Positions 10,389 through 29,403 of a stretch of DNA of 64,000 nucleotides are shown here, in pieces; the stretch's first letter is position 1, and each line of letters starts with the position of its first letter. Position numbers and translations under genes: made by a program. The notes under the pieces are model-generated. The model searched no databases. It was not told the origin of the DNA and saw nothing but the letters and a program-made list of their open reading frames with translations. Origin of the DNA: Seohaeicola saemankumensis. Lineage in GTDB: Bacteria; Pseudomonadota; Alphaproteobacteria; Rhodobacterales; Rhodobacteraceae. The stretch spans positions 186,001 to 250,000 of the forward strand of contig NZ_JAINWI010000009.1 of NCBI RefSeq assembly GCF_021021435.1, in the 5' to 3' direction.

Positions 10389-11160
10389 GCTGACCCTCCT
10401 CGGCCGCGTTGAACAGGGTTCCGCCGCCCAGATAGACCTCCTGGACGCGGGGGTCGTTGCGGATGTCCTCGACGCTGCCATTGGCGATCAACTGGCCGCG
10501 GTTCAGCACCATGACGCGGTGGGCATGGGCAAAGACCACGTCCATGTCATGTTCGGTGAACAGCACGCTGACGCCACGCTCGCGCACAATATCGGCGGTC
10601 AGTTTCATCAGCGCGATGCGTTCGCGCGGGGCCATGCCGGCGGTGGGTTCATCCATCAGCAGCAAGGTCGGCTCATGCGCCAGCGCAATCGCCAGTTCCA
10701 GACGTTTCAGATCGCCGTAAGCCAGCACCGCGCAGTGACGGTCGGCCTGATCTGCCATGCCGACCAGATCCAGCAGTTCCAGCGCCTTGTCACGATAGAG
10801 CGTATGGGCATAGGGCAGGATCGAGAACACCCGCCCGTGATGCGAGATTAGCGCCATCTGCACGTTTTCGGCTACAGTCATCGAGGCGTAGGTGCCTGTG
10901 ATCTGGAAGGTCCGCCCCACACCCATTTTCCAGATCTGGCGCGGCCCCAGTCCGGCAAGGTTGACCCCGTTCAGCCAGACCGTTCCCGCGCTAGGGGGCA
11001 ACTGCCCCATCAACATGTTGAAGCAGGTGGACTTGCCTGCACCATTGGGGCCGATCATGGCCAGCAACTCGCCCTTGTGCAGCGCGAAAGACACGTCCGA
11101 GACAGCCTTGATCGCGCCAAAGGATTTCGACAGGCCCCGTGTTTCCAGAACAATCGTCAT
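10381..11160 (-). CDS. livG: Branched-chain-type ABC importer, ATP-binding protein LivG
   Basis: A 259-residue LivG-type ATPase. Walker A GPNGAGKST, a LAYGDLKRLE signature region and Walker B TLLLMDEPTAGMAP are clear, with the H-loop in LFTEHDMD. The longer insert between Walker A and signature is typical of LivG compared with LivF. The ATG overlaps the permease stop by 4 bp and its own stop overlaps livF by 8 bp, so all parts are translated together. Confidence 0.93.
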   Translation of the reverse strand: MTIVLETRGLSKSFGAIKAVSDVSFALHKGELLAMIGPNGAGKSTCFNMLMGQLPPSAGTVWLNGVNLAGLGPRQIWKMGVGRTFQITGTYASMTVAENVQMALISHHGRVFSILPYAHTLYRDKALELLDLVGMADQADRHCAVLAYGDLKRLELAIALAHEPTLLLMDEPTAGMAPRERIALMKLTADIVRERGVSVLFTEHDMDVVFAHAHRVMVLNRGQLIANGSVEDIRNDPRVQEVYLGGGTLFNAAEEGQHA

Positions 11161-13164: not shown

Positions 13165-14370
13165 TCAGTTGGCCGGGCGCATGGCGCGCACTTCGTCGTC
13201 GCTGGGCAGATAGTCGGCACCGTCCTTATAGGTCCAGTCGACCATCACACCCTTGCCATCCTTGAGCGTGGTCGTGCCCACGAAAGCCCCCATGGTCGCC
13301 TGATGGTCGATCGCGCGGTAGGTGATCGGGCCGACAGGTGTATCCAGTTCCAGCCCCTTGAACGCCGCCTTCAGCGCCTCGGTCTCGGTGCTGCCGGCTT
13401 TTTCCAGCGCGGCCTGAATGGATTGCACGGTCATGTAACCCACCAGCGAACCGATACGGGGATAGTCGTTGTAGCGCGCCTGATACGCCTCGACGAAGGC
13501 GGTATTGGCGTCATCGCTCACGTCATACCAGGGATAGCCCGTCACGATCCAGCCCTCGGGGGCTTCCTCGCCCAGCGGATCAAGGTATTCCGGCTCGCCA
13601 GTCAGCATGCCAAACACCGTGCGCCCGTCAAAAACGCCGCGTGTCGTGCCTTCGCGCACGAATTTCGCAAGGTCCGTGCCAAAGGTCACGTTGAAGATCG
13701 CATCAGGCTTGGACCGCTCCAGAGCCTGCACCTCGGCGCCCGCGTCGATCTTGAACAGGGCGGGCCATTGCTCGGTCACGAATTCCACATCGGGTTTCAG
13801 GTTGGTCAGCACTTTCTTGAAGGCCTCGACCGCTTCCTTGCCATAGGCATAGTTGGGCGCGATGGTCGCATAGCGCACGGCATCGGATTGCGCGGCAGCC
13901 TCGGCCAGCATCGCGGCCTGCATATAGGTCGAGGTCCGCAGGCGGAACGTATAGTCATTGCCGCTGGCCCAGACGATGGAGTCCGCCAGAGGTTCGGACG
14001 CGAGATAGAGGTATTTCTTCTCGGCCGCCAGCGATGAGATCGCCAACCCCACATTACTGAGGATCGTGCCCGTCAGCATCACAGCCCCGTCGCGCGTCAT
14101 CAGTTCCTCGGCGATCTTGATCGCCTCGCCCGGCTCGCCCTGATCGTCGCGGAAGATGAATTCCAGCGGCTTGCCCAGCACACCACCTGCGGCGTTCACC
14201 TCTTCCAGCGCCAGTTCGATCCCCATTTTATAGGGTTCGGCAAAGGCTGCCATCCGCTTGTAATGGTTGATCTCTCCGATCTTGATCGTGTCCTGCGCCA
14301 GTGCGGGCAGACCTGTGACGGCAAGTGCTGCGGCACCCACCAGTCCTTTCAGAAACGTCTTGCGGTGCAT
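13165..14370 (-). CDS. ABC transporter periplasmic substrate-binding protein, LivK-like
   Basis: A 401-residue type I periplasmic binding protein. The N-terminus (MHRKTFLKGLVGAAALAV...ALAQ) is a signal peptide with likely cleavage after ALA near residue 25. The core IKIGEINHYKRM...ALEEVNAAGGVLGKPLEFIFRDDQGEP is the usual start of amino-acid/amide-binding members. It lies between the Rieske oxygenase gene (26 bp upstream) and the LivHM permease, so oxygenase and importer are expressed together. This suggests the importer brings in the oxygenase substrate or a compound of the same pathway. The specificity is not readable from sequence. Confidence 0.92.
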   Translation of the reverse strand: MHRKTFLKGLVGAAALAVTGLPALAQDTIKIGEINHYKRMAAFAEPYKMGIELALEEVNAAGGVLGKPLEFIFRDDQGEPGEAIKIAEELMTRDGAVMLTGTILSNVGLAISSLAAEKKYLYLASEPLADSIVWASGNDYTFRLRTSTYMQAAMLAEAAAQSDAVRYATIAPNYAYGKEAVEAFKKVLTNLKPDVEFVTEQWPALFKIDAGAEVQALERSKPDAIFNVTFGTDLAKFVREGTTRGVFDGRTVFGMLTGEPEYLDPLGEEAPEGWIVTGYPWYDVSDDANTAFVEAYQARYNDYPRIGSLVGYMTVQSIQAALEKAGSTETEALKAAFKGLELDTPVGPITYRAIDHQATMGAFVGTTTLKDGKGVMVDWTYKDGADYLPSDDEVRAMRPAN

Positions 14371-14396: not shown

Positions 14397-15464
14397 TCAG
14401 TCGTGCTGGACGAAAGTTGGTTTTACAGGTTCTCCAAGGTCTGTCGTTGCCTCGGCTTCGATCAGGTCGCGTATCCTTTTACGGTATACGTTCGGCCCTT
14501 TGTCTATGGCAATCCGGATAGGCTTGCGCTTTTGAGGACGCTGTTCCTCGAGATGGATCGCTTCCAAAATCTCCTTGTCTTCGGCAAAGGCTACGCGGAA
14601 CATCGCGTCCATCTGGTCCGATGCCGCGTCATCGCCCACCGCCGCGTTGCGGATATGCATCCAGTGGTCGATGGTATAGTCCTCGGTCACCGGTGTCACG
14701 AAATGCAGCGCAAAAATCCGCACACCCTTCTGGCGGTCTTCCTCGGGCAGATTCAGCGCCGCATCGGAACTGCCGAAGTCAATCACTGCCGTGCTGGGCA
14801 GATGCAGGTGGTAGTAATGCCAGCGGTCCACATTGCCGGAAAATCCGCCGAATTTCTGGAAGAACCCGACGGGCGGCGCATCCCTGATCCAGCGCCACGC
14901 GACGATGGCTTTACCCGATGTGCTGACATGGACCGGCACATTCTCTGACGCAGAACTGCCAAGCGTGGTGGGATGCACGAAACTGACATGGGCAGGATCG
15001 ACAAGGTTCTCGGCCACATTCAGGTAATGGGCTTTAAGATGCAATGCATCGCCGTGATGCACATGCCATGCAGGATCGCTGAATTCGGGCAGGTCGAAGA
15101 TGGTCGCGGGATCGGCGCGCTGCGGATCGCCCATCCAGACCCAGACAATGCCGTGACGCTCCTGCACCGGATAGGCCTCGACATAGGCGCTGGCGGGCAG
15201 GTTCTCCTGCCCCGGCACCCGCACGCAAGCACCGCTGCGGTCGAAGGTCATGCCGTGATAGCCGCACTGGATCGTGTCGCCGATGCGCTTACCCTTGGAC
15301 AGCGGAAGCTGACGGTGCGGGCAACGGTCCTCAAGTGCGACGAGCGTGCCATCGCTGGCCCGAAACATGACAAGCGTCTCATTCACGATGGTCAGGGCGC
15401 GCATCTGGTCACCGAAATCACGCGACCAGCCTGCCACATACCAGGCGTTTTTGATGAAAGACAT
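14397..15464 (-). CDS. Rieske non-haem iron oxygenase, vanillate demethylase-like
   Basis: A 355-residue oxygenase alpha subunit. The Rieske [2Fe-2S] ligands are in CPHRQ and CGYHG, the spacing is normal, and the mononuclear iron site is likely in NLVDPAHVSFVHP. The short size and the MSFIKNAWYVAGWSRD start match the vanillate O-demethylase/monooxygenase type. These enzymes demethylate or hydroxylate aromatic substrates and need a separate reductase; none is adjacent, so a reductase further along (23447 or 29404) may serve. The start at 15464 is set by a strong GGAGGAA site. It heads the operon with the Liv importer and is divergent from the MarR gene, with a palindromic operator between. Confidence 0.9.
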   Translation of the reverse strand: MSFIKNAWYVAGWSRDFGDQMRALTIVNETLVMFRASDGTLVALEDRCPHRQLPLSKGKRIGDTIQCGYHGMTFDRSGACVRVPGQENLPASAYVEAYPVQERHGIVWVWMGDPQRADPATIFDLPEFSDPAWHVHHGDALHLKAHYLNVAENLVDPAHVSFVHPTTLGSSASENVPVHVSTSGKAIVAWRWIRDAPPVGFFQKFGGFSGNVDRWHYYHLHLPSTAVIDFGSSDAALNLPEEDRQKGVRIFALHFVTPVTEDYTIDHWMHIRNAAVGDDAASDQMDAMFRVAFAEDKEILEAIHLEEQRPQKRKPIRIAIDKGPNVYRKRIRDLIEAEATTDLGEPVKPTFVQHD

Positions 15465-15585
15465 CGCTTCTTCCTCCGGTTGCGTTGCCACGATCAGCGG
15501 CAATCCGTTGGCTGCTCAGGCGGCGCGCCGGTCCTGCGACCGATCCGCGCAACCGTGGCCCTTTGTCCCATACGGCCCCAAAAAC

Positions 15586-15603
15586 TTGTTAGCTGTCAAA
15601 CAA
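15586..15603. promoter_or_regulatory. Shared operator, site A (TTGTTAG-CTGT-CAAACAA)
   Basis: An imperfect palindrome with two 7-bp arms and a 4-bp spacer, midway between the Rieske gene and the MarR gene (about 120 bp from either start). A TTGACA -35-like box for the minus-strand promoter (15599-15594) lies inside it, so binding would block that promoter. It matches three other sites at 23389, 24292 and 24373. Confidence 0.7.
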
Positions 15604-15718
15604 TATTTTAAGCTGGAAACAGGAAATGGACCCCGCCCGACTTTCGTGAAACACTAGCGCCCTGATGATAAGCAAATAGGCTGGGCTGTCCCCTACCGCG
15701 CCACAGGAAAGACGACGC

Positions 15719-16147
15719 ATGGATATCGAGAATCGGGATATCACCGCCTACCGGCTGGAAGACCAGATCGGCTTCAAACTGCGGCTGGCCAACCAGAAAC
15801 ATCTGGAAGTCTTCGCGCGGATGATGCCCGATGTGACCCCGACCCAATTCGCCGTTCTGGCCAAGCTGATGCAAGACGAGGTGATCTCCCAGAACCAGTT
15901 GGGACGGCTTGTCGGCATGGATGCAGCCACCACCAAAGGCGTGGTGGACCGTCTGCGCGCCAAGGGGTTCGTGCGGCGCACCAAAAGCACCAGTGACATG
16001 CGGCGGCTGGAAATCTCGCTCACACCCGAGGGGCGCGTCTTTGCGGATCAGGCAGTACAGACCGCGCATCAGATATCGCAGGCCACAGCCCAGAACCTGT
16101 CGCGCCGAGAACTGGAACGCCTGCTGGAACTGCTCGACAAGCTCTAG
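15719..16147 (+). CDS. MarR family transcriptional regulator
   Basis: A 142-residue winged-helix regulator. The DNA-recognition helix lies in the QNQLGRLVGMDAATTKGVVDR region (about 60-80) and the wing in RRTKSTSDMRRLEISLT. MarR proteins bind palindromes as dimers and usually release DNA when a phenolic or aromatic-acid ligand binds. It is transcribed away from the Rieske/Liv operon across a region with operator A, and is the best candidate for the regulator of all four matching operators. The other candidate is the TetR gene at 30478, whose own promoter region lacks the motif. The length is normal. Confidence 0.93.
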   Translation: MDIENRDITAYRLEDQIGFKLRLANQKHLEVFARMMPDVTPTQFAVLAKLMQDEVISQNQLGRLVGMDAATTKGVVDRLRAKGFVRRTKSTSDMRRLEISLTPEGRVFADQAVQTAHQISQATAQNLSRRELERLLELLDKL

Positions 16148-16202
16148 ACTCCTGCCGTTTCATCGTGCCCCGAACACTCAATATCCTGCGGTAGCCACAG
16201 GC

Positions 16203-16787
16203 TTAGCGCAGCCCGTCCTTACCTTCGGCCTCGGCATGCGCCAGCCCGCCAACGCGCGGAAGGGGGCGGCCCGAATCGGTAACAGCGACCGCGACCATGA
16301 TCTCGCCAGCACGCGGCGCATCCGGAAGGCGCACTTCGATCCCGTCGAAATGGCTGCGCACATAGGCCGCGTCCTTGTGGCCCAATGGCACGTCCAGCGG
16401 CTGCCCCGGCCCGCCCATTTTCTTGGACGACGGCACGAGGGCAGCCCCCTTCTCGACCGCTGCACGCAGGGGGGCGCCCAGTTTGGGATGCAGGATCGCG
16501 GCGGCATGTTCCAGCTCTCCGTCCTCGCCCACCATCGCGGCCTTGCCATAGCTTTGCGCCTCGGCGGGGGTGATCCCCAAAGCGGCAACACAGCGTTGCC
16601 CCAGAAGCCCGCCCAGTTCCGCGCCGATCTCGATCAGCTCCGACAGATCCGCGACATAGCGACCAGCAAAGGGATTGGCGATGACGGCCACGGCCACGGC
16701 CTTGCGGGTCGCAGGGGTGATCGTCTGGCCCATCTCGCGATGCGTTTCCTCGACCCAGACAGCGATACGGCGGATATCGGCGCTCAT
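16203..16787 (-). CDS. DUF1185 (AA_synth, PF06684) family protein, copy 2
   Basis: A 194-residue member of PF06684 (amino acid synthesis family, DUF1185). Recognisable features are VIANPFAGRYV (35-45), GKAAMVGEDGELEHAAAILHP and the C-terminal YVRSHFDGIEVRLPDAPRAGE. Solved members of this family have a variant of the Bacillus chorismate mutase fold; no reaction is established. It is the last gene of the operon and overlaps its paralogue by 4 bp. The two copies have equal length and the same motif order, so a hetero-oligomer is likely. The context points to a late step on a small acid formed from the ring compound. Confidence 0.88.
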   Translation of the reverse strand: MSADIRRIAVWVEETHREMGQTITPATRKAVAVAVIANPFAGRYVADLSELIEIGAELGGLLGQRCVAALGITPAEAQSYGKAAMVGEDGELEHAAAILHPKLGAPLRAAVEKGAALVPSSKKMGGPGQPLDVPLGHKDAAYVRSHFDGIEVRLPDAPRAGEIMVAVAVTDSGRPLPRVGGLAHAEAEGKDGLR

Positions 16788-17368
16788 CTCAGCCCATCCC
16801 TTTCAGCAATCTGGTCGGCGCGGAAACCGCCAGCGCGGTTATGCACACGCGGACCGGTGGTCATCACCAGCGCAAGGGCCATCTCGTGCGCGCGCGGCGC
16901 ATCGTTGAGGCCCAGTTCCATCGAATCGAAATGGCTGCGGACATAGGATGCGTTCACATGGGTGACCGGCACATCCAGACGCGCACCGACACCGCCCACC
17001 TTTTTGGTTGAGGGCACAATCGCCAGCGCATCGCCCAGCACCTCACGCATTGCATAGCCGCCCGGCGCATGCCACAGCGCGCCATGCTCCAACTCGCCGG
17101 CCGCGCCGACAATAGCACCTTTGCCGTAGCCTTCGACCAGCGCGGGATCACCGCCCAACAGGTCCACCAGACGTTGCGCCATCATCAGGCCAAGGGGTTT
17201 GAGATCTTCCATGAAATGCTGGATATCCTCAACATAGGCACCGGCAAAAGGGTTGCGGATTACCGCCAGAACGGCAGCACGACGCAGAGGGGTATTGGCC
17301 TTTGGCCCACCCTCATGGAAAATCTCCTCGGTCACGTTGAGGATTTTACGGATCTCGACCTCAGGCAT
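16784..17368 (-). CDS. DUF1185 (AA_synth, PF06684) family protein, copy 1
   Basis: A 194-residue paralogue of the next gene, with VIRNPFAGAYVEDI, GKGAIVGAAGELEHGALWH and YVRSHFDSMELGLNDAPRAHE. The start at 17368 (MPEVEIRKIL) gives a length equal to the paralogue and has an AAAGGAG site; it overlaps the UPF0280 gene by 8 bp. Both copies sit behind 6-hydroxynicotinate reductase and UPF0280 genes. I believe this association also occurs in other proteobacteria, which would suggest a conserved but unassigned step. The frame continues upstream, but that stretch is out of phase with the UPF0280 gene and is not part of this protein. Confidence 0.88.
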   Translation of the reverse strand: MPEVEIRKILNVTEEIFHEGGPKANTPLRRAAVLAVIRNPFAGAYVEDIQHFMEDLKPLGLMMAQRLVDLLGGDPALVEGYGKGAIVGAAGELEHGALWHAPGGYAMREVLGDALAIVPSTKKVGGVGARLDVPVTHVNASYVRSHFDSMELGLNDAPRAHEMALALVMTTGPRVHNRAGGFRADQIAERDGLR

Positions 17369-18230
17369 GCTGAAGGCTCCTTTCTGAAAGGGCGGATGCC
17401 CATGATCTGTGATGCGTCGTGGCGCCCTGACCTTGCAGCAGCAGGGCGGCGGCTGCAACATGGCCCGCATCCACCAGAGATTGTGCCCGCAGCACACCGC
17501 GGGACAGGGCCGATGCGATATCGCTCTGCGACAGCGCGCCGACATGGGTGACGACCAGTCGCGCGCCAAGATCGCTGTCGGGGTGCAACTCCTGCGCGGG
17601 CTGGCGGGAGATGGCCGGATGGTCCGGCAGATCGACCGCATTGGCCACCAGCGTGGCGGCAGCATCCGCCTGTGCCGCGCCAGCGGCCAGCACTGTGACA
17701 GATGTCGCAATCCCCCGCGACAGGCTGCGCCCGCCCTGCCCGCTGGTCGCGATACCGCCGATCCCGTCTTCTGCAGCCAATGTGATCTGTCCGCTGATCT
17801 GCCCGCCCAGACCTGCAATAGCCGCGCGGAAGGTCTGGCCCGCCGCCAGATGCAATGCGATATCGCCCCCGTTATTGACATAGGCACGGGCGAGCGGTGT
17901 TGCGGCCAGCATCGCGGCCAGCACCTCATCCGCAACGGAACCGGCTACGGCGGCCATCGGGGTGATAAAGTCACCCTGCGCAACCGCGGCGCAGGCGCGG
18001 TGCATCCGGCCCGCGATCTTGCCTTTGGGACGCACGCCAAGGGTTCTGCGCAACAGCGGCAGTTCGGGGACAAGCTCGTTCAGCACCGTGGCGAAACGAT
18101 CACGCGCGGCGCGGTAGGCGATGCGACGCGCCTCCTCGCTCTGCTCCTCGGCCATGATCACCAGATCAATCGGGCCGTGATGCAGATGCAGGCGACCATC
18201 CGGCAGAAGGGCGGCTTGCGCTCCGCTCAT
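17361..18230 (-). CDS. UPF0280 (ApbE-related) family protein
   Basis: A 289-residue UPF0280 family protein. Features include IDLVIMAEEQ near the N-terminus, the central MAAVAGSVADEVLAAM and AYVNNGGDIALHL stretch, GGIATSG, and ADAAATLVANAVD. The GxxAxxVxxxAxNxG-type segment resembles ApbE flavin transferases, to which UPF0280 is distantly related. ApbE moves FMN onto a Thr or Ser of a target protein. The gene overlaps the 6-hydroxynicotinate reductase homologue by 4 bp and DUF1185 copy 1 by 8 bp, so it is tightly coupled to both. A role in covalent flavin attachment to the reductase is a testable guess, not shown by sequence. Confidence 0.85.
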   Translation of the reverse strand: MSGAQAALLPDGRLHLHHGPIDLVIMAEEQSEEARRIAYRAARDRFATVLNELVPELPLLRRTLGVRPKGKIAGRMHRACAAVAQGDFITPMAAVAGSVADEVLAAMLAATPLARAYVNNGGDIALHLAAGQTFRAAIAGLGGQISGQITLAAEDGIGGIATSGQGGRSLSRGIATSVTVLAAGAAQADAAATLVANAVDLPDHPAISRQPAQELHPDSDLGARLVVTHVGALSQSDIASALSRGVLRAQSLVDAGHVAAAALLLQGQGATTHHRSWASALSERSLQHA

Positions 18231-19726
18231 CCCCGCCGCCCTTTGCGATCAGGCCGCCAGCGATAGTTCTGCGGATCATGCGGATCTGGCTGGCTGAGAT
18301 TGGGCAAGACCCTGCGGATCGCGGGGGTCAGCACACCTTCGACAGGTTTGACATGATCCACATGACCGCCCAAGGCTGCATAATCCTCCAGCCGCAGGGT
18401 AAATTCGATAGGGGCCACCAGTGCAGGCGTCGGCACATAGCCGAAAGAATTGGTGGGCATATCCATCACATCGGCCATGACGGTGATACCGCCGCCGGGC
18501 CAGACATAGGCCTCGGCCCCGCCACAGGACACATAAGTCAGCGCATCCTTGACCGACCGTGTCAGCCGCACAGGGTTCTCGGTCACGCCTGCGCGCAATG
18601 ACCCGCCCGCGCCGCCCATGAACAGGACCGAGCAGAGCGAGGGTTCGCAATTCTCGGCGATACGCTCGGCAGTAGCCAGCAAGGAGGGGGTGATTTCAGC
18701 CGGTTGCGGGATCAAGTCATCATCCAGCACGTAATAGGCCCATTGCTCGCCCGTGGTGGAAATCATCAGCAAGCGCAGCCCTGCCCAAGCCAGCTTCGGA
18801 TCGGCCGGCTTAAGGATCGTCAAAGGGTCCTGCACATTAGTCCCACCCCAGCCTGTACCGGGTTCGGCCACTTGAAAATAGCGGCCCGGCGTGGATTTGC
18901 GGCCCTTCACCTTGATCCCCGAGGGGCGCATATCAAGGCCCTTGCCCGCCTCGTGCTCGCTCAGCACGCCGGTGATATGGTCGTCCACAACAACCACCTC
19001 GTCGACATGGCCGTGCCATTGCTTGGCGAACATCCCGATGGTGGCCGAGCCGCAACCCACGCGCATCAGCTTTTCCGGCACGCCGTTGATGACCGGCGCG
19101 TGACCTGCCTGCACCACAAGTGTCACGCCCTCGTCGATCTGCATCTCGACCGCCTCGCGGTTGCACAGGCGCATCAGCGCGTCACAGGTCACGCGACCTT
19201 CCTTCTTGGAACCGCCCGTCAGGTGTTCGACCCCGCCCAGCGACAGCATCTTGGAGCCGTATTCGGCGGTCATCACATGCCCGATCGCCTCGCCATCCAC
19301 CCGCACAACGGCACGCTCGTGCCCGATATGGCGGTCGGTGTCGATTTTCACTTTCACGCCGCAATAGCTGAAGATGCCTTCCGTCACGACGGTAACCATA
19401 TCGACGCCCTCGACCTGCTGGCTGACGATGAAGGGGGCCGGTTTGTAATCGGGATATGTGGTGCCCGCGCCGACCGCCGTTACGAAGGTGCGGTTGCCCT
19501 GGATGACGTCGCCGTCCCAATCCTGCGCGTTTTCGCCCTGATCAAGAAAGGCCACCGCCTGCGCGCCGCCCTGAATGACGGTCAGCGGATCAAGGCGCAC
19601 CAATTCGCCTCCGTGGTTGGCATAACGATCGCAGGCACCTGCCTTGCCATCGGCGATATAACACATCACCGGGCAGGCATCGCAGCGGATCTTTTCCGCT
19701 GCCAAGGGGGCGTTGTCGTCAGGCAT
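18227..19726 (-). CDS. 6-hydroxynicotinate reductase homologue (iron-sulfur protein)
   Basis: A 499-residue protein resembling 6-hydroxynicotinate reductase (Hnr) of the nicotinate-fermenting anaerobe Eubacterium barkeri. That enzyme uses reduced ferredoxin to convert 6-hydroxynicotinate to 1,4,5,6-tetrahydro-6-oxonicotinate. An N-terminal Cys cluster, C15-x2-C18-x3-C22-x9-C32, fits a [4Fe-4S] site. Other notable segments are VTEGIFSYCGVKVKIDTDRH and VSCGGAEAYVWPGGGITVMADVMDMP. It lies directly behind a molybdenum hydroxylase (8-bp overlap), and a ferredoxin-NADP reductase gene is upstream, matching the expected need for a hydroxylated substrate and low-potential electrons. The actual substrate may be a related ring compound rather than nicotinate. 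Confidence 0.85.
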   Translation of the reverse strand: MPDDNAPLAAEKIRCDACPVMCYIADGKAGACDRYANHGGELVRLDPLTVIQGGAQAVAFLDQGENAQDWDGDVIQGNRTFVTAVGAGTTYPDYKPAPFIVSQQVEGVDMVTVVTEGIFSYCGVKVKIDTDRHIGHERAVVRVDGEAIGHVMTAEYGSKMLSLGGVEHLTGGSKKEGRVTCDALMRLCNREAVEMQIDEGVTLVVQAGHAPVINGVPEKLMRVGCGSATIGMFAKQWHGHVDEVVVVDDHITGVLSEHEAGKGLDMRPSGIKVKGRKSTPGRYFQVAEPGTGWGGTNVQDPLTILKPADPKLAWAGLRLLMISTTGEQWAYYVLDDDLIPQPAEITPSLLATAERIAENCEPSLCSVLFMGGAGGSLRAGVTENPVRLTRSVKDALTYVSCGGAEAYVWPGGGITVMADVMDMPTNSFGYVPTPALVAPIEFTLRLEDYAALGGHVDHVKPVEGVLTPAIRRVLPNLSQPDPHDPQNYRWRPDRKGRRG

Positions 19727-22463
19727 GTCCTGCCTCCTTCAGAGCGGCGCGCACGCGCGCAGGGGTCGCGGGAAGTTGCGTGATCCGCACACCGGTGGCA
19801 TGCCTGATCGCGTTCAGGATCGCAGGGGCCGTGGGGATCAGCACATGTTCCCCCAAGCCTTTCGCGCCGTAAGGCCCGTGTGCGTCGGGCACTTCGATGA
19901 TCAGCGTGTCAATCGGGGGCACGTCGCCGATAGTCGGGATCAGGTAGTCATGCAGGTTCTCGGTGCGGTGGGGGATATATTCCTCCATCAGCGCCATACC
20001 CATGCCTTGGGCGATACCGCCATGCACCTGCCCTTCGACCAGCAGGGGGTTAATCGCCTGGCCCACATCATGGGCGGCGGTAAATCGCAGCGGACGTACA
20101 CGGCCAAGGGCAGTATCAACCTCGACCACCACCAGATGCGCGGCATAGCCGTATTGGGCATAGGGCTCGCCCTGCCCGTTCGCATCCAGCGGCTTGGTCG
20201 GGGGATCGTAGGATTCGTTCACCTCGATCACATAGCCTTTGAGGTTGGGCGACAGGCGCGCCAGATCGAGGACAAAGTGTTGCGCGCCATCCGTCACCGC
20301 AACAGTGCCATCCTGCAAGGTCACCACCGCATCGGGGCTTGCGTTGACCTGTGACAGCATCTCGCGGCGCAGCGCCTCGCCTGCCAGCCTAGCGGCATTG
20401 CCGGTTACAAACGTCTGCCGGCTGGCCGAGGTTTTGCCAGCGTCGGGCGTCAAATCGGTATCAGCCCCGACAAGGGCGATCTGATGGACGGAAACGCCCA
20501 GCGCGCGGGCAAATATCTGCGGGATCACGGTGTTGGAGCCCTGACCGATATCCATGGCGCCCTGATGCAGCACAACCGTTCCATCAGCACGCAATCCTGC
20601 GCGGATGGTGGATGGGTTGGGCATCGAGGTATTGCCGCAGCCATACCAGCCCGCGGCCAGACCGACACCGCGTTTTAGGGTGCTGTTGACGGTGTTGAAA
20701 GCGGCGCAGTCGGCCTTTGCGGCCTCCCAAGCGGGGCGCAGCGCCTCAAGGCAGGGTTTGATCCCGACGCCTTTGGCGAAGACCTGCCCGCAGACTGTCG
20801 GAACGCCGTTATCCAGCGCGTTGAGAAGACGAAAATCAAGCGGGTCCATGCCAAGTTGCGCGGCAAGATCGTCGAACAGACTTTCCTGTGCGATGGCCGA
20901 TTGCGGCACGCCGAAGCCGCGAAATGCGCCTGCGGGCACGCAATGCGTATGGATCGCGCGCGACCGCGCACGGTAATCGGACACGCGGTAAGGGCCGGAG
21001 GCATGGACTGGCACGCGGTTCGCCACGGTCGGTCCCCAAGAGGCATAGGCGCCGGTGTTGAAATCACCATCGAATGTCATACCGCACAGCCGCCCGTCAC
21101 GATCCGCGCCGATCCGCATCGTGATCTGTGCGGGATGCCGTTTGGTGGTGGACTGCATGGTTTCCACACGCTCATAGGTCATCCTTACGGCACGGCCTGT
21201 CTTCATCGCGGCAAGCGCCAGAAACGGTTGTAGCGATATGTCGATTTTGGAACCGAAGCCGCCCCCCACCGCCGTGGGCACGATGCGGATACGCTCGCGC
21301 GGCAGGCCCAGAATGGGCATCAGCGCGTCCTGATCCATCACGGGCGCTTGCGTGCAGGCATGGACGACAACGCGGTCGCCCTGCATCTCGGCAAAGCCTG
21401 CCTCGGGTTCGATGTAACCGTGCTCGACAAAGGCGGTGGTGAAATGCCCCTCAACGATGACATCCGCACGGCCCAGCGCGGCATCGGCATCGCCGCAAGC
21501 AACATGGCCGCCGCACATGATATTGCCAGCGCGTCCATCATGCAGTTGCGGGGCAGCACCGGACAGTGCCGCATTAACCTCCATCACAGCATCGCGGATG
21601 GCCCATGAAACAGGGAAGGCCTCCAGATCAAGCTGCGCCATGACTGCAGCCTCTCCGATAACGGCGGCCACCGCCTCGCCACGAAAGCGAACATGATCCA
21701 CTGCGAAAACAGGCTGGTCGATGAAGCCGGGAATGACGCCGAAGGCATTCAGGCCGGGCACATCGGCGGCGGTCAGGATCGCGTGCAGGCCCTGATGGGC
21801 AGCAAGGTAGCCGTCCAGATCGCCAAGGGTGAAACCGGCATGGGCATGGGGCGAGCGGATTACCCGCAACACCAATGCACCGGCGGGCGCGACATCATCG
21901 CCGAAGGCTTCCATGCCTGTAACCTTGGGCAGACCGTCCAGACGACGCAGGCTCGTGCCGACATCGCCCGCAGTCTCGGCAGAGGGCACAGCCCCTGCCC
22001 CCACGACCGCGTCGATGATCTTGCGATAGCCCGTGCAGCGGCACAGCACGCCACCCAGCGCGTCCTGCACCTGAACGGCATCGGGCGTGGCGATCTCGCG
22101 TAGCAACGCCACGGCAGACACCATCATTCCGGGGGTGCAGATCCCGCATTGCGCGGCCTGATGCGCCTGAAAGCTGTTGACCAGCGCGCCCGCATGGGGA
22201 TCGGCCTTGACCAGCCCTGCCAGCGTTTCGATCTTTGCACCCGCCGCCCGTTGCACCGGCATCAGGCAAGCACACAGTGGCACCCCATCGACCAGCACGG
22301 TGCAAGCACCGCAATCGCCCGCATTGCAGCCGATCTTGACGTCTTTGGCCCCCAGTTTTTCGCGCAGCACATGGGACAACCGTTCGCCGGGCGTTGCCTC
22401 GACCTCGACCACCACGCCGTTCAGCTGGAAAGCAGTCATTTCGGGTGCGGTGCGTCTATCCAT
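19719..22463 (-). CDS. Molybdenum hydroxylase, fused [2Fe-2S] and molybdopterin subunits
   Basis: A 914-residue xanthine-dehydrogenase-family protein. Residues 1-160 are the iron-sulfur part: C46, C51, C54 and C66 bind the plant-type cluster, and CGICTPGM with CRCTGY bind the second. From about 165 it is the molybdopterin catalytic part, with GGGFGSKIDISLQPF, GAFRGFGVPQ, and the catalytic glutamate in GAKGLGEHVLIP. Such enzymes hydroxylate N-heterocycles using water. FAD is on the separate neighbouring subunit (8-bp overlap). A nicotinate-dehydrogenase-like role would make the substrate for the adjacent ring reductase. The start at 22463 was preferred over the ATG at 22439 because of the coupling overlap; neither has a strong ribosome binding site. 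Confidence 0.88.
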   Translation of the reverse strand: MDRRTAPEMTAFQLNGVVVEVEATPGERLSHVLREKLGAKDVKIGCNAGDCGACTVLVDGVPLCACLMPVQRAAGAKIETLAGLVKADPHAGALVNSFQAHQAAQCGICTPGMMVSAVALLREIATPDAVQVQDALGGVLCRCTGYRKIIDAVVGAGAVPSAETAGDVGTSLRRLDGLPKVTGMEAFGDDVAPAGALVLRVIRSPHAHAGFTLGDLDGYLAAHQGLHAILTAADVPGLNAFGVIPGFIDQPVFAVDHVRFRGEAVAAVIGEAAVMAQLDLEAFPVSWAIRDAVMEVNAALSGAAPQLHDGRAGNIMCGGHVACGDADAALGRADVIVEGHFTTAFVEHGYIEPEAGFAEMQGDRVVVHACTQAPVMDQDALMPILGLPRERIRIVPTAVGGGFGSKIDISLQPFLALAAMKTGRAVRMTYERVETMQSTTKRHPAQITMRIGADRDGRLCGMTFDGDFNTGAYASWGPTVANRVPVHASGPYRVSDYRARSRAIHTHCVPAGAFRGFGVPQSAIAQESLFDDLAAQLGMDPLDFRLLNALDNGVPTVCGQVFAKGVGIKPCLEALRPAWEAAKADCAAFNTVNSTLKRGVGLAAGWYGCGNTSMPNPSTIRAGLRADGTVVLHQGAMDIGQGSNTVIPQIFARALGVSVHQIALVGADTDLTPDAGKTSASRQTFVTGNAARLAGEALRREMLSQVNASPDAVVTLQDGTVAVTDGAQHFVLDLARLSPNLKGYVIEVNESYDPPTKPLDANGQGEPYAQYGYAAHLVVVEVDTALGRVRPLRFTAAHDVGQAINPLLVEGQVHGGIAQGMGMALMEEYIPHRTENLHDYLIPTIGDVPPIDTLIIEVPDAHGPYGAKGLGEHVLIPTAPAILNAIRHATGVRITQLPATPARVRAALKEAGHA

Positions 22464-23316
22464 TTGACTTGCCCTGTTTGCCGATTGCATGCGCCACGGC
22501 GCGCGCACAAAGAGTAGCTGCTGCCTCCATCCGGTATTCGGCACTGCCGCGCACATCCGCGATGGGCGCGAGCGGGGAGAGATGCGCGGGCGTGATCAAA
22601 GCAGCACCTGCCAGCAGCACATCCCTGACCGCGCGGCCCGTCAGATCAGCCTCTAGCGCCGGCAGGCGTTGCGCCGTCGCGGAACAGGAACCCACGGCAA
22701 TAGCGGCTTTCACGATCCGGTCCTCTTCAACCGTCACCACGGCTGCGACCATCGCGATCGAGATCACCAGATAATGCCGCGCGCCCAGTTTCAGAAACGA
22801 CCCCTGCGCCTTGTCGGGCTGTGCGGGAATATGGATCGCGGTCAACACCTCGGCAGGCCGTCGCGCGGTCTTGCGCGGCCCTTGCAGGAAATCGGCCAGC
22901 GGCATCCGTCGCGTGCCAGCGGTCGAGGCCAGTTCAACCACGGCCCCCAAAGCCAGCAATGGCGGCACCCCGTCAGCGGCGGGCGAGGCGTTGCACAAGT
23001 TGCCCGCGATTGTACCCGCGTTCTGGATCTGGACCGACCCCACCTCATATGCGGCAGCCTTCAACCCGTCGAAGGCAGGGGGCAGACCGGCGCGGATTAC
23101 ATCCGTCCAGGTCGTGGCCCCGCCGATGCGCCAGCCGGAACCGTCAGGCATAAACCCGCGCATGCCTTCCACACGGGTGATATCGACCAGATCACCTTGC
23201 AAAGGACGCGACCCCTGCGCCGGAAACCAGTCTGTCCCGCCGGCAATGATGGCGCCATGTCCGCGGTCAAGAGCGGCCAGAGCCTCGGTCAGTGATGCGG
23301 CCACCAGATAAGCCAT
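22456..23316 (-). CDS. Molybdenum hydroxylase FAD-binding subunit
   Basis: A 286-residue CoxM/XdhB-type FAD subunit. The flavin-binding motifs IIAGGTDWFPAQ (32-43) and the NAGTIAGNLCNASPAAD stretch are in place, followed by a CO-dehydrogenase flavoprotein C-terminal domain. It passes electrons from the molybdenum and iron-sulfur centres of the fused partner downstream. The start at 23316 (MAYLVAASL) follows a GGGGAA site; a GTG- or TTG-type extension is possible but does not fit the family. It is the first gene of the operon that runs to the DUF1185 genes, and an operator copy lies about 73 bp upstream. Confidence 0.9.
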   Translation of the reverse strand: MAYLVAASLTEALAALDRGHGAIIAGGTDWFPAQGSRPLQGDLVDITRVEGMRGFMPDGSGWRIGGATTWTDVIRAGLPPAFDGLKAAAYEVGSVQIQNAGTIAGNLCNASPAADGVPPLLALGAVVELASTAGTRRMPLADFLQGPRKTARRPAEVLTAIHIPAQPDKAQGSFLKLGARHYLVISIAMVAAVVTVEEDRIVKAAIAVGSCSATAQRLPALEADLTGRAVRDVLLAGAALITPAHLSPLAPIADVRGSAEYRMEAAATLCARAVAHAIGKQGKSNG

Positions 23317-23388
23317 CGTCTTTTCCCCGCAGCAAGCCGCCATTCAAACGCGGCCCCGTTTTGCGACCGCTTGGTGCAGTCATGTATT

Positions 23389-23406
23389 TTGTTTGCACAC
23401 TAATAA
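23389..23406. promoter_or_regulatory. Shared operator, site B (TTGTTTG-CACA-CTAATAA)
   Basis: Same 7-4-7 layout as the other three sites, each arm one base off TTGTTAG/CTAACAA. It lies between the FNR stop and the FAD-subunit start on the minus strand, so the hydroxylase/ring-reductase operon has its own regulated promoter. Confidence 0.6.
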
Positions 23407-23446
23407 GAAATCCGCAGGGCCCTACCTGTCAAATCAAATATGCGGA

Positions 23447-24256
23447 TCACCCGACGAAAGCGCGCTCGACAACGAAGGTTGCCGGTTTGCTGTTCGAGCC
23501 TTCCTCCAGTCCGAAGCCTTCCAGTGCGGCTTTGGTATCCCGCAGCATCTCCATCGAGCCGCAGATCATTCCACGATCGGTTGCCGCGCTGATCACCGGA
23601 AGGCCCAGAGCCGCGAACAGATCGCCCGATTCCATCAGATCGGTCTGCCGTCCCATTCTGTTCGACGCTTCCCGCGTTGTGGTCGCATAGTGGATCAATC
23701 CGCCCGCCATCTCGCCCACCAGAGGGTCGGCGCGCAGATCGCGCACCAGATCGAAGCCATAGGTCAGTTCGGCCACATCGCGGCAGGTATGGCACAAGAT
23801 CACCTGCTCGAATTTCTCGTAAGTCTCAGGGTCACGGATCAGGCTGGCAAAAGGCGCGATACCTGTGCCGGTGGCGAACATGTAAAGCCGCTTGCCGGGC
23901 ACGAGCGCATCCAGCACCAGCGTGCCGGTGGGCTTTTTCTTCATCAGCACAGTATCGCCCGGCCGGATGCGCTGCAAATGCTCGGTCAGCGGACCGTCCG
24001 GCACCTTGATCGAATAGAACTCGATCTCCTCGTCCCATGCAGGCGAAGCTATGGAATAGGCGCGCATCACGGGCTTTTCCGCATTCGGCAGACCGATCAT
24101 CACGAATTCCCCCGACCGGAAGCGGAAAGATGCAGGCCGCGTGATCCGGAAGCGGAACAGACGGTCGTCATAGTGCTGCACTTGCGTGACAGTTTCGGCA
24201 AACATGCCCTCGGGGATGGGGAAAGATGTGGCTGGCTTCAAAGTTGCGACGGACAT
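23447..24256 (-). CDS. Ferredoxin-NADP+ reductase
   Basis: A 269-residue bacterial-type FNR (Fpr). The flavin-binding RAYSIASPAW and IKVPDGPLTEHL, the NADP site MFATGTGIAPFASLIRDP, and the family C-terminal FVVERAFV ending are clear. It moves electrons between NADPH and ferredoxin. Sitting beside a ferredoxin-dependent ring-reductase homologue and under the same operator, it probably supplies low-potential electrons for that step, or for the Rieske oxygenase at 14397, which lacks a reductase of its own. No ferredoxin gene lies in the cluster, so a housekeeping ferredoxin would be needed. A strong GGAGGG site (24268-24263) precedes the start. Confidence 0.92.
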   Translation of the reverse strand: MSVATLKPATSFPIPEGMFAETVTQVQHYDDRLFRFRITRPASFRFRSGEFVMIGLPNAEKPVMRAYSIASPAWDEEIEFYSIKVPDGPLTEHLQRIRPGDTVLMKKKPTGTLVLDALVPGKRLYMFATGTGIAPFASLIRDPETYEKFEQVILCHTCRDVAELTYGFDLVRDLRADPLVGEMAGGLIHYATTTREASNRMGRQTDLMESGDLFAALGLPVISAATDRGMICGSMEMLRDTKAALEGFGLEEGSNSKPATFVVERAFVG

Positions 24257-24291
24257 GCGCCCCTCCTATCGGGATGAATCACTCTTATTTT

Positions 24292-24309
24292 TTGTTAGTA
24301 TACAAACAA
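24292..24309. promoter_or_regulatory. Shared operator, site C (TTGTTAG-TATA-CAAACAA)
   Basis: Palindrome about 36 bp upstream of the FNR start. A perfect -35 box TTGACA for the FNR promoter is at 24321-24316 on the minus strand, so the operator covers the spacer and -10 region. This is the classical place for a repressor. Confidence 0.72.
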
Positions 24310-24372
24310 ATTGGCTGTCAATGTGTTTTAGGCGGCACAGGTATCGCTGCCCTCTTGATCGGTGTGGCGTTT

Positions 24373-24390
24373 CTGTTAGCGTTCTAACAA
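24373..24390. promoter_or_regulatory. Shared operator, site D (CTGTTAG-CGTT-CTAACAA)
   Basis: Near-perfect palindrome (TGTTAG-N4-CTAACA exact) ending 18 bp before the enamidase ATG. It is 81 bp from site C in the same divergent promoter region, so the two units are probably controlled together. Confidence 0.72.
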
Positions 24391-24408: not shown

Positions 24409-25608
24409 ATGGCCGAAGTTGCCCCCCAGACGCAGGACACAACCCACAAGCTTGTCATCCACAACATCGGCCTGATGCTGTCGGGCAAAATCGAACAGCC
24501 CATCTATGACGCCGATTGCTTGATCGCGGTCGGCGGCAAGATCACCGCTTGGGGCTATGAGAAGGATATGGATACCGAAGATGCCGATACGCTGATCGAC
24601 GCGAATGGCAGCACGCTCTGCCCCGGCCTGATCGACAGCCATGTGCATCCGGTGGTGGGAGACTACACCCCGCGCCAGCAGCAGTTGCACTGGATCGACT
24701 CGACCTTGCATGGCGGGGTTACCACGCTGATCTCGGCAGGCGAGGTTCATATGCCGGGCCGGCCCAAAGATATCGTGGGGCTGAAGGCGATGGCGATCGC
24801 ATCGCAGCGCTGGTACGAGAATTTCCGCCCCTCCGGCGTCAAGGTCCATGCCGGCGCGCCCGTGATCGAACATGGCATGGTCGAGGAGGATTTTGCCGAT
24901 CTTGCCAAGGCCGGCGTCAAGCTGTTGGGCGAGGTGGGTCTTGGCACCGTCAAGGATGGCAAGACCGCGCGGCAGATGGTGGACTGGGCGCGCAAATACG
25001 GCATCCAGAGCACCATCCACACAGGCGGACCATCGATCCCCGGATCGGGGCTGATCGACGCGGATATGGTGCTGGAAACCGGCACCGATGTGGTGGGCCA
25101 TATCAATGGCGGCCATTCAGCACTGCCCGACGACCAGATCATCTGCCTGTGCGAAGGCTGCAAGGCAGGGCTTGAGATTGTGCATAACGGCAACGAGCGC
25201 GCGGCTTTGCTGACGCTGAACACAACGCGCGAACTGGGCAAGCTGGATCAGGTGATCCTTGGTACGGACGGTCCCGCCGGATCGGGGGTGCAACCCTTGG
25301 GCATCCTGCGGATGATCGCGATGTTGTCGAGCCTTGGGAATGTCCCCGCCGAAGTGGCCTTCTGCTTTGGCACCGGCAATACGACGCGCCAGCGCGAGCT
25401 GGACACCGGCATGATCGAGACAGGGCTTTGCGCCGATTTTGTGCTGATGGATCAGGCGCAGCATGCGCCCGGCAAGACGATCCTGGAATCGGTGCAACTG
25501 GGCAACCTGCCCGGTATCGGCATGACCATCATTGACGGGCGCGTGACCAGCCAGCGCAGCCGCAACACGCCCCCTGCGGGTCGGATTCCGGCGATTTTGC
25601 AGGGGTAG
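24409..25608 (+). CDS. Enamidase homologue (amidohydrolase superfamily)
   Basis: A 399-residue amidohydrolase resembling enamidase of Eubacterium barkeri, which opens 1,4,5,6-tetrahydro-6-oxonicotinate to ammonia and 2-formylglutarate. Matching features are IDANGSTLCPGLIDSHVHP (metal ligands H78 and H80), GDYTPRQQ, LHGGVTTLISAGEVHMPGRPKD, GEVGLGTVKD, IHTGGPSIPGSG, HINGGHSALP, and the metal-site GTDGPAGSG. The C-terminal SRNTPPA also matches. It is the next pathway step after 6-hydroxynicotinate reductase, whose homologue is in the divergent operon, and site D lies just upstream. The substrate could be a ring-reduced analogue. The start is supported by CAGGAG at 24395-24400. Confidence 0.87.
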   Translation: MAEVAPQTQDTTHKLVIHNIGLMLSGKIEQPIYDADCLIAVGGKITAWGYEKDMDTEDADTLIDANGSTLCPGLIDSHVHPVVGDYTPRQQQLHWIDSTLHGGVTTLISAGEVHMPGRPKDIVGLKAMAIASQRWYENFRPSGVKVHAGAPVIEHGMVEEDFADLAKAGVKLLGEVGLGTVKDGKTARQMVDWARKYGIQSTIHTGGPSIPGSGLIDADMVLETGTDVVGHINGGHSALPDDQIICLCEGCKAGLEIVHNGNERAALLTLNTTRELGKLDQVILGTDGPAGSGVQPLGILRMIAMLSSLGNVPAEVAFCFGTGNTTRQRELDTGMIETGLCADFVLMDQAQHAPGKTILESVQLGNLPGIGMTIIDGRVTSQRSRNTPPAGRIPAILQG

Positions 25609-26032
25609 AGTATCACCCTTTGTGCAGTCTCGGGCAGAACCCGCCCGCAGGTGGGCGTCGCGCCTTTTGTCCAAGGCGGTTCATCGCGCAGCAAACCTCT
25701 GACCCTCGCGGATGCCGGAACCCAAGAAAAGAGCCCGCCCGGGAGGGCGGTCGGGCTCTGCCCGGAGCGGCACCGGACAAGCACCATTTAAGCTCACTTC
25801 GCAGGACCGGAGCGGAGCGTCGTTTTCAGTGACTAACCCCCTGCCTCTCTGCGGTATGTTGAGCGCGATTGGAACAGGGACGGACCATGCTGGCAGGGCT
25901 GAAAACACATACGTCGAAAAATCTGACACTACTGTCGTTTTTGGTGGTGACGGAACTGCGGCCATCGGTCAGGATCACACCTGCGCCGCGCTTCCTGCGC
26001 GTTGCGCGCCCCTGTCCCTGCCGGAGCTTCCG
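25609..26032. other. 424-bp intergenic region with an orphan terminator
   Basis: No convincing gene on either strand. The frame of the next gene is open back to 25712, but the family N-terminus begins at 26033, so this is not coding in a recognisable way. The region holds a minus-strand terminator (25730-25759) with no annotated gene behind it, which may mark a small antisense or trans-acting RNA. Confidence 0.55.
25730..25759 (-). terminator. Minus-strand rho-independent terminator without a known gene
   Basis: AGAGCCCG (25730-25737) and CGGGCTCT (25752-25759) pair, with a further GC-rich inner stem. On the minus strand the stem is followed by TTTTCTT, on the plus strand by GC-rich sequence, so it works leftward. 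The nearest gene on either side is plus-strand. A minus-strand RNA of about 100-250 nt starting within 25800-26000 would explain it. Confidence 0.6.
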
Positions 26033-28081
26033 ATGACCCAGACCCTGACCAAAGACCCGCTGTTGCAACCCTATCAGTTGGGCCATCTGACCCTGAAGAA
26101 CCGGATCATGACCACCAGTCACGAACCGGCATACCCTGAGGACGGGATGCCCAAGGACCGTTACCGCGCCTATCACGAGGCCCGCGCGCGCGCCGGCGTC
26201 GCACTGACCATGACGGCAGGATCGGCGGCGGTGTCGCGCAACTCGCCGCCCGTGTTCAACAATGTGCTGGCCTATAAGGACGAGGTGGTGCCTTGGATGC
26301 GCGCCATTGCCGCGGGTTGCCACGAACATGGTTGCGCCGTGATGATCCAGTTGACGCATCTGGGCCGGCGCACGCATTGGGCCAAGGGCGACTGGCTGCC
26401 TGTCGTGGCTCCCGGCCCGTTTCGGGAACCCGCGCACCGCGCCTTTCCCAAGGTGATCGAGGATCACGAGATCGACCGTATCATTCAGGATTACGCCGAT
26501 GCGGCGGAACGGATGCAGGCAGCGGGTCTGGATGGGGTAGAGTTCGAATGCTACGGGCATCTGATGGACCAGTTCATGTCGCCGCTGACCAATGCGCTGG
26601 ATGCGCCTTGGGGGGGCGGGCTGGAAAACCGGGCACGTTTCGCGCTCGAGGTGTACCGTGCCTGCCGCAAACGTGTCGGCAACCGTTTCCTGCTAGGTAT
26701 GCGCTATGCGGCCGATGAGGCTGCACAGGGCGGGATTACCGCCGAGGACGGCATCGTAATCGGCCATATGTTCAAGGCAGAAGGCGTGGACTTCCTGAAT
26801 GTGATCAAGGGCCAGATCCACACGGATGCCGCGCTGACCGATGTGATCCCCGTGCAGGGAATGCGATCCGCACCGCATCTGGATTTCGCCGGGCGCATTC
26901 GCGCCGAGGTAGGATTGCCCACGTTCCATGCCGCGCGCATCCCCGATGTCGCCACGGCGCGGCATGCCGTGGCCTCAGGCCAGTTGGATATGGTGGGCAT
27001 GACCCGCGCACATATGGCCGACCCGCTGATCGTGACCAAGATCATCGAGGGGCGGGAGGAGGATATCCGCCCCTGCGTTGGGGCCAACTACTGTCTGGAC
27101 CGGATCTATCAGGCGGGCGATGCGCTTTGCACCCACAACGCGGCCACAGGGCGCGAATTGACCATGCCGCATGACGACCAGATCACACCTGCGGCTGAGC
27201 AAAAGCGTGTCGTGGTCGTCGGCGCAGGTCCGGCGGGGCTTGAAGCCGCACGGGTAGCTGCAATGCGCGGACACAAGGTCACGGTGTTCGAGGCGGCACC
27301 CAATGCAGGTGGGCAGTTGCGGTTGGCGTCGCAATCGGCACGTCGGCGCGAGATGATCGGAATCATCGACTGGCGCATGGCACAATGCGCAGCGCGTGAC
27401 GTGGCTTTCCACTTCAATACCTATGCTGAAGCCACTGACATCACGGCACAAAACCCCGATGTGGTGATCATCGCCACAGGCGGCATACCCAATACGGATG
27501 TGCTGGAGGATGGCAAAGATCTGGTTGTCTCAAGCTGGGATATCATTGCAGGCGATGTAAAGCCCGGTGCCCGTGTGCTGATCTATGACGATGCGGGCGA
27601 CCATCCGGCCCTGCAAGCCGCCGAGGTAGTTGCGGCCAGTGGTGGCCATGTCGAGGTCATGACCCCCGACCGCAGCTTTGCACCCGATGTGATGGCGATG
27701 AACCTTGTGCCCTATATGCGCAGCCTTCAGGACAAGGATGTCCGCTTTACAGTGACTTACCGGCTGAAAGCGGTCGTGAAATCCGGCAACCACCTGCAAG
27801 CGGTGATCGGCTCGGACTATTCCGCACATCGCGACACACGCGAGTTCGACCAGATTGTGGTCAATCACGGAACTTTGCCGCTGGACGAATTGTATTTTGC
27901 CCTCAAACCGCAATCGGCCAACAAGGGCGCTGTCGATCAGGACGCGCTGATCGCGGGTCGCGCGCAGCCTTGGAAGGCGGGGCCGGACCAGTTCGCACTT
28001 TTCCGGATCGGCGATGCAGTGGCGGCGCGCAATACCCATGCGGCAATCTATGATGCGCTGCGTCTGGTCAAGGATATATGA
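26033..28081 (+). CDS. OYE/TMADH-like N-demethylase (NADH:flavin oxidoreductase)
   Basis: A 682-residue protein with an Old Yellow Enzyme TIM barrel (about 1-335), a Cys-rich linker (348-366) and a pyridine-nucleotide/FAD domain (VVVVGAGPAGLEAARVAA). Related enzymes include trimethylamine dehydrogenase and the demethylases of dimethylglycine and proline-betaine catabolism. The iron-sulfur motif is unusual: C348, C354 and C366 are present, but the position of TMADH's second Cys is Ala (CVGANYC). Start 26033 was chosen because the family N-terminus (LLQPYQLGHLTLKNRI) begins there and GGAG lies upstream. A Rieske oxygenase and its reductase follow, the usual betaine demethylation set, so it probably removes an N-methyl group left by the Rieske step. 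Confidence 0.87.
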   Translation: MTQTLTKDPLLQPYQLGHLTLKNRIMTTSHEPAYPEDGMPKDRYRAYHEARARAGVALTMTAGSAAVSRNSPPVFNNVLAYKDEVVPWMRAIAAGCHEHGCAVMIQLTHLGRRTHWAKGDWLPVVAPGPFREPAHRAFPKVIEDHEIDRIIQDYADAAERMQAAGLDGVEFECYGHLMDQFMSPLTNALDAPWGGGLENRARFALEVYRACRKRVGNRFLLGMRYAADEAAQGGITAEDGIVIGHMFKAEGVDFLNVIKGQIHTDAALTDVIPVQGMRSAPHLDFAGRIRAEVGLPTFHAARIPDVATARHAVASGQLDMVGMTRAHMADPLIVTKIIEGREEDIRPCVGANYCLDRIYQAGDALCTHNAATGRELTMPHDDQITPAAEQKRVVVVGAGPAGLEAARVAAMRGHKVTVFEAAPNAGGQLRLASQSARRREMIGIIDWRMAQCAARDVAFHFNTYAEATDITAQNPDVVIIATGGIPNTDVLEDGKDLVVSSWDIIAGDVKPGARVLIYDDAGDHPALQAAEVVAASGGHVEVMTPDRSFAPDVMAMNLVPYMRSLQDKDVRFTVTYRLKAVVKSGNHLQAVIGSDYSAHRDTREFDQIVVNHGTLPLDELYFALKPQSANKGAVDQDALIAGRAQPWKAGPDQFALFRIGDAVAARNTHAAIYDALRLVKDI

Positions 28082-28150
28082 CCATGCGCGGCTGAATACA
28101 CTTTCCCTCAATCAACCATAAACCTCCATTCCCCTCCTAGGATCATAGTC

Positions 28151-29398: not shown

Positions 29399-29403
29399 GC
29401 AGC

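Follow-up and report, generated by a model that had tools for sequence, protein, structure and literature searches.

A candidate MarR operator shared by the promoters of a pyridine-carboxylate-type gene cluster in Seohaeicola saemankumensis

The reductive nicotinate pathway of Eubacterium barkeri runs through nicotinate dehydrogenase, 6-hydroxynicotinate reductase (Hnr) and enamidase, and an operon for homarine catabolism, homABCDER, has reportedly been described by Ferrer-Gonzalez et al. in Nat Microbiol in 2026. Work on homarine catabolism is cited in the available part of PMC13390433. The available part of PMC6837509 describes BpsR of Bordetella as a MarR repressor of nicotinate catabolism that is inactivated by 6-hydroxynicotinate, calls the exact DNA sequence for BpsR unclear, and names NicR of Pseudomonas putida as a MarR-like repressor of the nic genes; PMC6550519, likewise as far as its available part goes, concerns NicR2 in P. 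putida nicotine degradation. Here we analyse a 64-kb stretch of the Seohaeicola saemankumensis genome (contig NZ_JAINWI010000009.1; hereafter the window) in which four matching palindromes, O1 to O4, stand ahead of genes for a Liv importer, a Rieske oxygenase, a molybdenum hydroxylase, an Hnr-like protein, a ferredoxin-NADP reductase-like protein (FNR) and an enamidase. From their sequence and setting, these palindromes are very probably the operators of the MarR-family protein encoded at 15719, which would act as a repressor of all these genes and be released by a pyridine-carboxylate.

Palindromes in the window and in its genome

The four palindromes are 18 bp long, share a 7-4-7 spacing and start at 15586, 23389, 24292 and 24373, where a first-pass annotation of the window had placed them. 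We scanned with a strict pattern, TTGTTAG-N4-CTAACAA, and with a relaxed one, TTGTTWG-N4-CWAACAA, which accepts either A or T as the sixth base. At up to three mismatches to the strict pattern O1 to O4 were the only matches in the window, which bears out the annotation's remark that no others were seen by eye, and 100 shuffles of the window gave a mean of 0.41 sites and a maximum of three, none of them reaching four. Across the whole genome (4.09 Mb, 75 contigs) the strict pattern is found in three places at one mismatch, all within the window, and in two places at two mismatches: 23389 itself and C45:161106, the best genome place outside the cluster, which was read with 60 bp on each side only. 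The relaxed pattern at up to one mismatch recovers O1 to O4 and no other place in the genome, against one place for the reversed control. Frequent occurrence outside promoters, which the annotation had named as telling against a regulon, is thus not what the genome holds at this threshold, as 4/4 places sit in the promoters of the cluster.

A looser scan is less selective, and it bears on the idea that the palindromes are chance words or transcript-level features such as small hairpins. AT-rich 7-bp arms do arise by chance at three mismatches: the strict pattern then finds 36 places in the genome, below the reversed control's 90. We nevertheless regard this idea as extremely unlikely, because it is opposed by the confinement of the motif to the locus at one mismatch and, as set out below, by its conservation and its set distance to TTGAC. 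We found no published description of this operator in the literature, in which the motif letters themselves were not searched for.

Recurrence of the sites beside relatives of the MarR gene

A profile search gave 440 loci, and the best 80 of these, with a MarR 48-87% identical to the window's, were named and mapped; 78 of the 80 hold at least one pathway gene. A site at up to two mismatches is present in 67 of them, against nine for the reversed control, and 108 of the 110 such sites lie outside mapped genes, the only genes considered, as compared to 6/12 for the control. Counting per gene within 300 bp upstream and at up to three mismatches, we found that sites precede the heads of operons: the Rieske gene in 32/35 cases, FNR in 16/17, the enamidase gene in 36/59 and the FAD subunit gene in 32/59. 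MarR has one in 62 of 80 distinct upstream stretches (63 of 80 loci). By contrast, the operon-internal genes that served as a control are nearly free of them (Hnr 0/54, LivF 0/36, LivK 1/37), and the single LivK site belongs to the only locus in which LivK faces MarR (L108). AAsynA, which in the window closes its operon, is preceded by a site in 12/63, mostly in loci where it faces MarR, as it does in many SAR116-type loci. When 34 Rieske/MarR gaps were aligned, the operator stood out as their sole long, nearly invariant block.

A separate search of 295 family genomes found a MarR match at E 1e-20 in 88; seven genomes (that of the window included) carry a MarR at 64-100% identity, and the other 81 matches reach at most 51%. 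We mapped the 14 best relatives, six close ones and eight of the about-50% group. In 13 of the 14, MarR stands in one cluster with hydroxylase subunits; in the 14th (G041) the contig stops 1.7 kb after MarR. Liv genes, LivK included, lie beside MarR at 74-84% identity in five of the six close relatives, which also hold the Rieske gene in four cases, the enamidase gene in four and FNR in one (G067); in G010 the hydroxylase core is present and its order differs. All eight members of the about-50% group have hydroxylase subunits, seven have Hnr too (not G210), and in five the FAD subunit, hydroxylase, Hnr, UPF0280 and one PF06684 gene stand together. The site precedes MarR in all six close relatives, five found by scan and G010 by eye (TCGTTTGCTGTCAAACGA), and in six of the eight others, of which G213, G137 and G138 are scan hits with three mismatches each and G103, G245 and G146 show weaker variants by eye. 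These data support the annotation's central proposal of one regulon under MarR 15719: the palindrome recurs at the same operon heads beside MarR relatives, and like sites beside the same regulator in dozens of relatives very probably mark where MarR switches the pathway.

Another protein, TetR (30478) or a global factor, might bind the palindromes instead and MarR be only a neighbour, as MarR is about 8 kb or more away from three of the window's four sites and 17 of the 80 loci have none just before it. We hold this to be very unlikely. Sites recur beside MarR relatives in Rhodobacteraceae, SAR116/Puniceispirillum, Granulosicoccus and other contigs, and in 15 genomes of the family that lack a MarR match at 1e-20 the relaxed pattern at one mismatch gave 12 places, in four genomes, below the reversed control's 22. 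No counterpart of TetR turned up in the stretches mapped in the 14 relatives, and the 80 loci gave a single 33% match to it (L107), a weak count because many stretches end near the enamidase gene. TetR also has no meaningful likeness to MarR (E 0.70), and the relatives give it no support as the regulator.

Some relatives depart from the common layout. In L122, L136, L140 and L149 (Tabrizicola, Cypionkella, Rhodobacter) the gene arrangement is different, with MarR about 8-10 kb downstream of an enamidase and not directly preceded by an operator. In the rhizobial L156 and L158 the half-site ahead of the FAD subunit drifts to TCATTTG (TCATTTGTATACGAATGA, TCATTTGCATACGAATGA), so that operator code and regulator may have changed together. 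Relative G027 has a second, different MarR-family gene just after its enamidase gene (L051:8829-9326).

Promoter layout, ligand pocket and mode of control

Three of the four window promoters carry a minus-strand TTGACA, located inside O1 (15599-15594), 6 bp from O3 (24321-24316) and 20 bp from O2 (23432-23427); the annotation had rightly seen such a box overlapping or abutting sites, and had counted two. Relatives keep these distances: firstly, at the Rieske promoter TTGAC begins 4 bp inside the operator, in gene direction, in 32/32; secondly, at the FAD-subunit promoter it starts 25-29 bp ahead of the site in 24 of the 32 distinct relatives that have one; thirdly, at the FNR promoter it starts 11-12 bp ahead of the site in 15 of 16 such relatives. 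A fixed distance to TTGAC, seen at three of four promoters, is the arrangement expected of a repressor that acts by blocking polymerase. The usual spacer between the -35 and -10 boxes is about 17 bp, and on that footing O1 would cover the predicted -35 box of the Rieske-Liv operon and O2 the stretch from -10 to start ahead of the hydroxylase-Hnr genes, and at the FNR promoter O3 would lie over the spacer and -10; O4 would cover the enamidase promoter just ahead of the ATG. Bound there when inducer is absent, a MarR dimer would block RNA polymerase at four promoters.

Since some MarR proteins activate, we weighed whether this one might be an activator, or dual-acting, at some promoters. At the Rieske-Liv promoter the -35 word is present and reading of the aligned gaps revealed no clear -10, as might suit an activated promoter, but the sites of three of the four promoters fall on the predicted core promoter rather than upstream of the -35, and activation appears unlikely.

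O1 stands in the gap that separates the Rieske gene from the divergent MarR gene, and its end is 115 bp short of the MarR ATG. Autoregulation is common among MarR genes, and with O1 so placed self-repression could be its main role; we consider this quite unlikely. Where MarR is faced by a mapped pathway gene, 62 of 67 loci have a site ahead of MarR; where it is not, 1 of 13 has. In the MarR direction, 54 of 62 sites have no TTGAC nearby. The first of these splits suggests that the site before MarR is part of the structural operon, which leaves self-repression unsupported, and together they make it doubtful that O1 serves chiefly for autoregulation. Between O1 and MarR, several close relatives share a short block resembling TTTCGTGAAA (window 15642-15651), which may be part of the MarR promoter.

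The regulator itself has a winged-helix domain of the MarR family (PF01047, 48 bits against a cutoff of 24.6) and among solved structures matches PDB 2nnn (1.3e-28), 6pcp (2.4e-18) and 6pco (4.4e-18), the last two being BpsR; the phmmer match to 6pcp extends over residues 10-141. The available part of PMC6837509 gives Tyr15, His23, Arg26 and His32 as the 6-hydroxynicotinate residues of BpsR. In the 80 relatives Tyr15 is kept in 80, Arg26 in 80 and His32 in 79, and the window's MarR keeps all three of these and has Phe at the His23 position, so that three of the four residues agree. Judged from these positions, the ligand is likely to be related but not identical to 6-hydroxynicotinate. For the proposed repressor we picture a pyridine-carboxylate, probably a 6-oxo (6-hydroxynicotinate-like) intermediate of the pathway, that would enter the pocket between the monomers and release the DNA, upon which import, ring hydroxylation, ring reduction, electron supply and enamide hydrolysis would rise together.

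Several observations weigh against MarR as a repressor acting in this way at O1 to O4. Among the 17 loci without a site within 300 bp before MarR, four (L117, L147, L151, L158) are siteless across the whole locus at up to three mismatches; no site was found by scan or by eye before MarR in G210 and G008, nor, in a scan to three mismatches, before the FAD subunit gene of Sulfitobacter L161. The enamidase operator has no nearby TTGAC in 33 of 35 cases. At the BpsR His23 position all 80 relatives have Phe (59) or Tyr (21), and the ligand may accordingly not be 6-hydroxynicotinate. Permuted control words, which differ from the motif at four or more places and yet partly re-match, reached maxima of 56/80 for MarR (against 62), 32/35 for Rieske (against 32) and 13/17 for FNR (against 16), with low means (7.9, 4.0 and 2.4); in our opinion the maxima are high because permuting a T-rich word sometimes yields one that fits the same site again. 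In 15 MarR-bearing genomes the relaxed pattern at one mismatch finds 31 places, not much above the 22 of the reversed control; 14 of the 31 fall in cluster stretches, and three such genomes (G103, G137, G008) have no place at all. By these genome-wide control counts the motif marks the cluster, but lone weaker sites elsewhere mean little. Finally, the locus counts are not independent, owing to shared ancestry, to L119 and L120 being the ends of one contig, and to six of the 80 loci apparently coming from genomes already counted among the close relatives.

The operator is well defined and its conservation broad, and the regulon is of an ordinary kind. It offers a concrete operator for a MarR group that is tied to pyridine-carboxylate-type clusters, spans the Rhodobacteraceae and extends to SAR116 and Granulosicoccus contigs, and a mark that can be scanned for to see which genes belong to the pathway. 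It also ties an importer and a Rieske oxygenase of unassigned substrate to a reductive ring-opening route.

Pathway genes and comparison with described systems

Table 1. Palindromes and genes of the cluster in the window
Feature	Position	Strand	Sequence, support or remark
O1, Rieske/MarR gap	15586-15603		TTGTTAGCTGTCAAACAA; 1 mismatch to strict pattern
O2, ahead of FAD-subunit/hydroxylase/Hnr operon	23389-23406		TTGTTTGCACACTAATAA; 2 mismatches to strict pattern
O3, ahead of FNR	24292-24309		TTGTTAGTATACAAACAA; 1 mismatch to strict pattern
O4, ahead of enamidase	24373-24390		CTGTTAGCGTTCTAACAA; 1 mismatch to strict pattern; ends 18 bp before the ATG
LivF, LivG and permease with two BPD_transp_2 stretches (fused LivM/LivH)	9687..13019	-	
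LivK-type periplasmic binding protein	13165..14370	-	PF13458; PDB 3i45 3.6e-147
Rieske oxygenase, VanA/DdmC-like	14397..15464	-	PF19112, PF00355; ORF start possible at 15503
MarR-family regulator, proposed repressor, 142 aa	15719..16147	+	PF01047 1.2e-12
Two PF06684 'amino acid synthesis' family proteins	16203..17371	-	second start approximate
UPF0280 family protein	17361..18230	-	NF003322, 356.8 bits vs cutoff 290
6-hydroxynicotinate-reductase-like protein (Hnr)	18227..19726	-	annotation of Sulfitobacter counterpart
Molybdenum hydroxylase, xanthine dehydrogenase family, with 2Fe-2S domains	19719..22556	-	
Hydroxylase FAD subunit	22456..23343	-	PF00941, PF03450
Ferredoxin-NADP reductase-like protein (FNR)	23447..24256	-	PF00970, PF00175
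Enamidase	24409..25608	+	2vun ENAMIDASE 1.1e-106 over residues 14-396
OYE-type reductase, GbcA-like Rieske oxygenase, GbcB-like reductase	25712..30477	+	downstream of enamidase
TetR	30478	-	

The enamidase is so named by sequence match, 2vun being its sole solved relative at 1e-8. The hydroxylase matches the molybdenum subunits of nicotinate dehydrogenase, 3hrd_A and 3hrd_B; its best solved match is the aldehyde oxidoreductase 1dgj, with 3hrd ranking lower, partly because the latter is split in two chains. The FAD-subunit open reading frame (ORF) overlaps the start of the hydroxylase ORF, and the starts of both are provisional. The Hnr-like protein gave no match in the Pfam scan; its counterpart on a Sulfitobacter pontiacus plasmid, where the gene order from LivF to enamidase is the same, is annotated '6-hydroxynicotinate reductase', and the FNR counterpart in that locus (L161) is annotated ferredoxin--NADP reductase. 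The Rieske oxygenase has dicamba O-demethylase as its best solved relative (1.8e-41). The closest solved relative of the LivK-type protein, 3i45, presumably holds nicotinate, for which we found no supporting text.

The OYE-type and GbcA/B-like genes would be regulon members only if read through from O4: the window scan found no operator ahead of them, OYE adjoins the enamidase gene in one of the 80 loci (L102) and GbcA/B in none, though most flanks end near the enamidase gene. ORFs listed downstream in four relatives, with ten proteins of three of them scanned, revealed no common lower pathway. In Sulfitobacter L161 a scan to three mismatches found no site ahead of the acyl-CoA operon downstream of the enamidase gene, and we rejected a wider Sulfitobacter regulon including that operon. 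The L161 cluster resides on a 176-kb plasmid (NZ_CP081117.1); the window's stretch also finds partial matches in 19 plasmid records, of which 17 are predicted to be non-mobilizable.

These genes point most readily to nicotinate, or to an N-methylated relative that the Rieske enzyme would demethylate, as the substrate. A more specific version, which we put forward as a tentative and rather doubtful one, has trigonelline or another N-methylated pyridine-carboxylate broken down by an aerobic route in which import, demethylation and reductive ring opening are joined under one MarR switch, with an operator code shared, with drift, by marine sister clusters, themselves perhaps the homarine operons. 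The Liv proteins would import the substrate, the DdmC-like Rieske enzyme together with FNR would remove the methyl group, and the freed nicotinate would enter a reductive ring opening otherwise of the anaerobe type.

The clusters of the about-50% MarR group would fit the reported homABCDER operon in the number and kind of genes, that is, five genes and a regulator; the window cluster differs in adding an enamidase, a second PF06684 gene, a Rieske oxygenase and a different Liv set. NicR, by its description in PMC6837509, is similarly a MarR-like repressor of a nicotinate pathway. With BpsR the window's MarR shares the pocket Tyr, Arg and His and a pyridine-carboxylate pathway, whereas the window pathway, with Hnr and enamidase, looks reductive. 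The E. barkeri pathway is alike in its enamidase (the 2vun match), in a 3hrd-matching hydroxylase and in an Hnr-like protein whose counterpart is so annotated; to these the window adds Liv import, a Rieske oxygenase, FNR and a set of candidate MarR operators.

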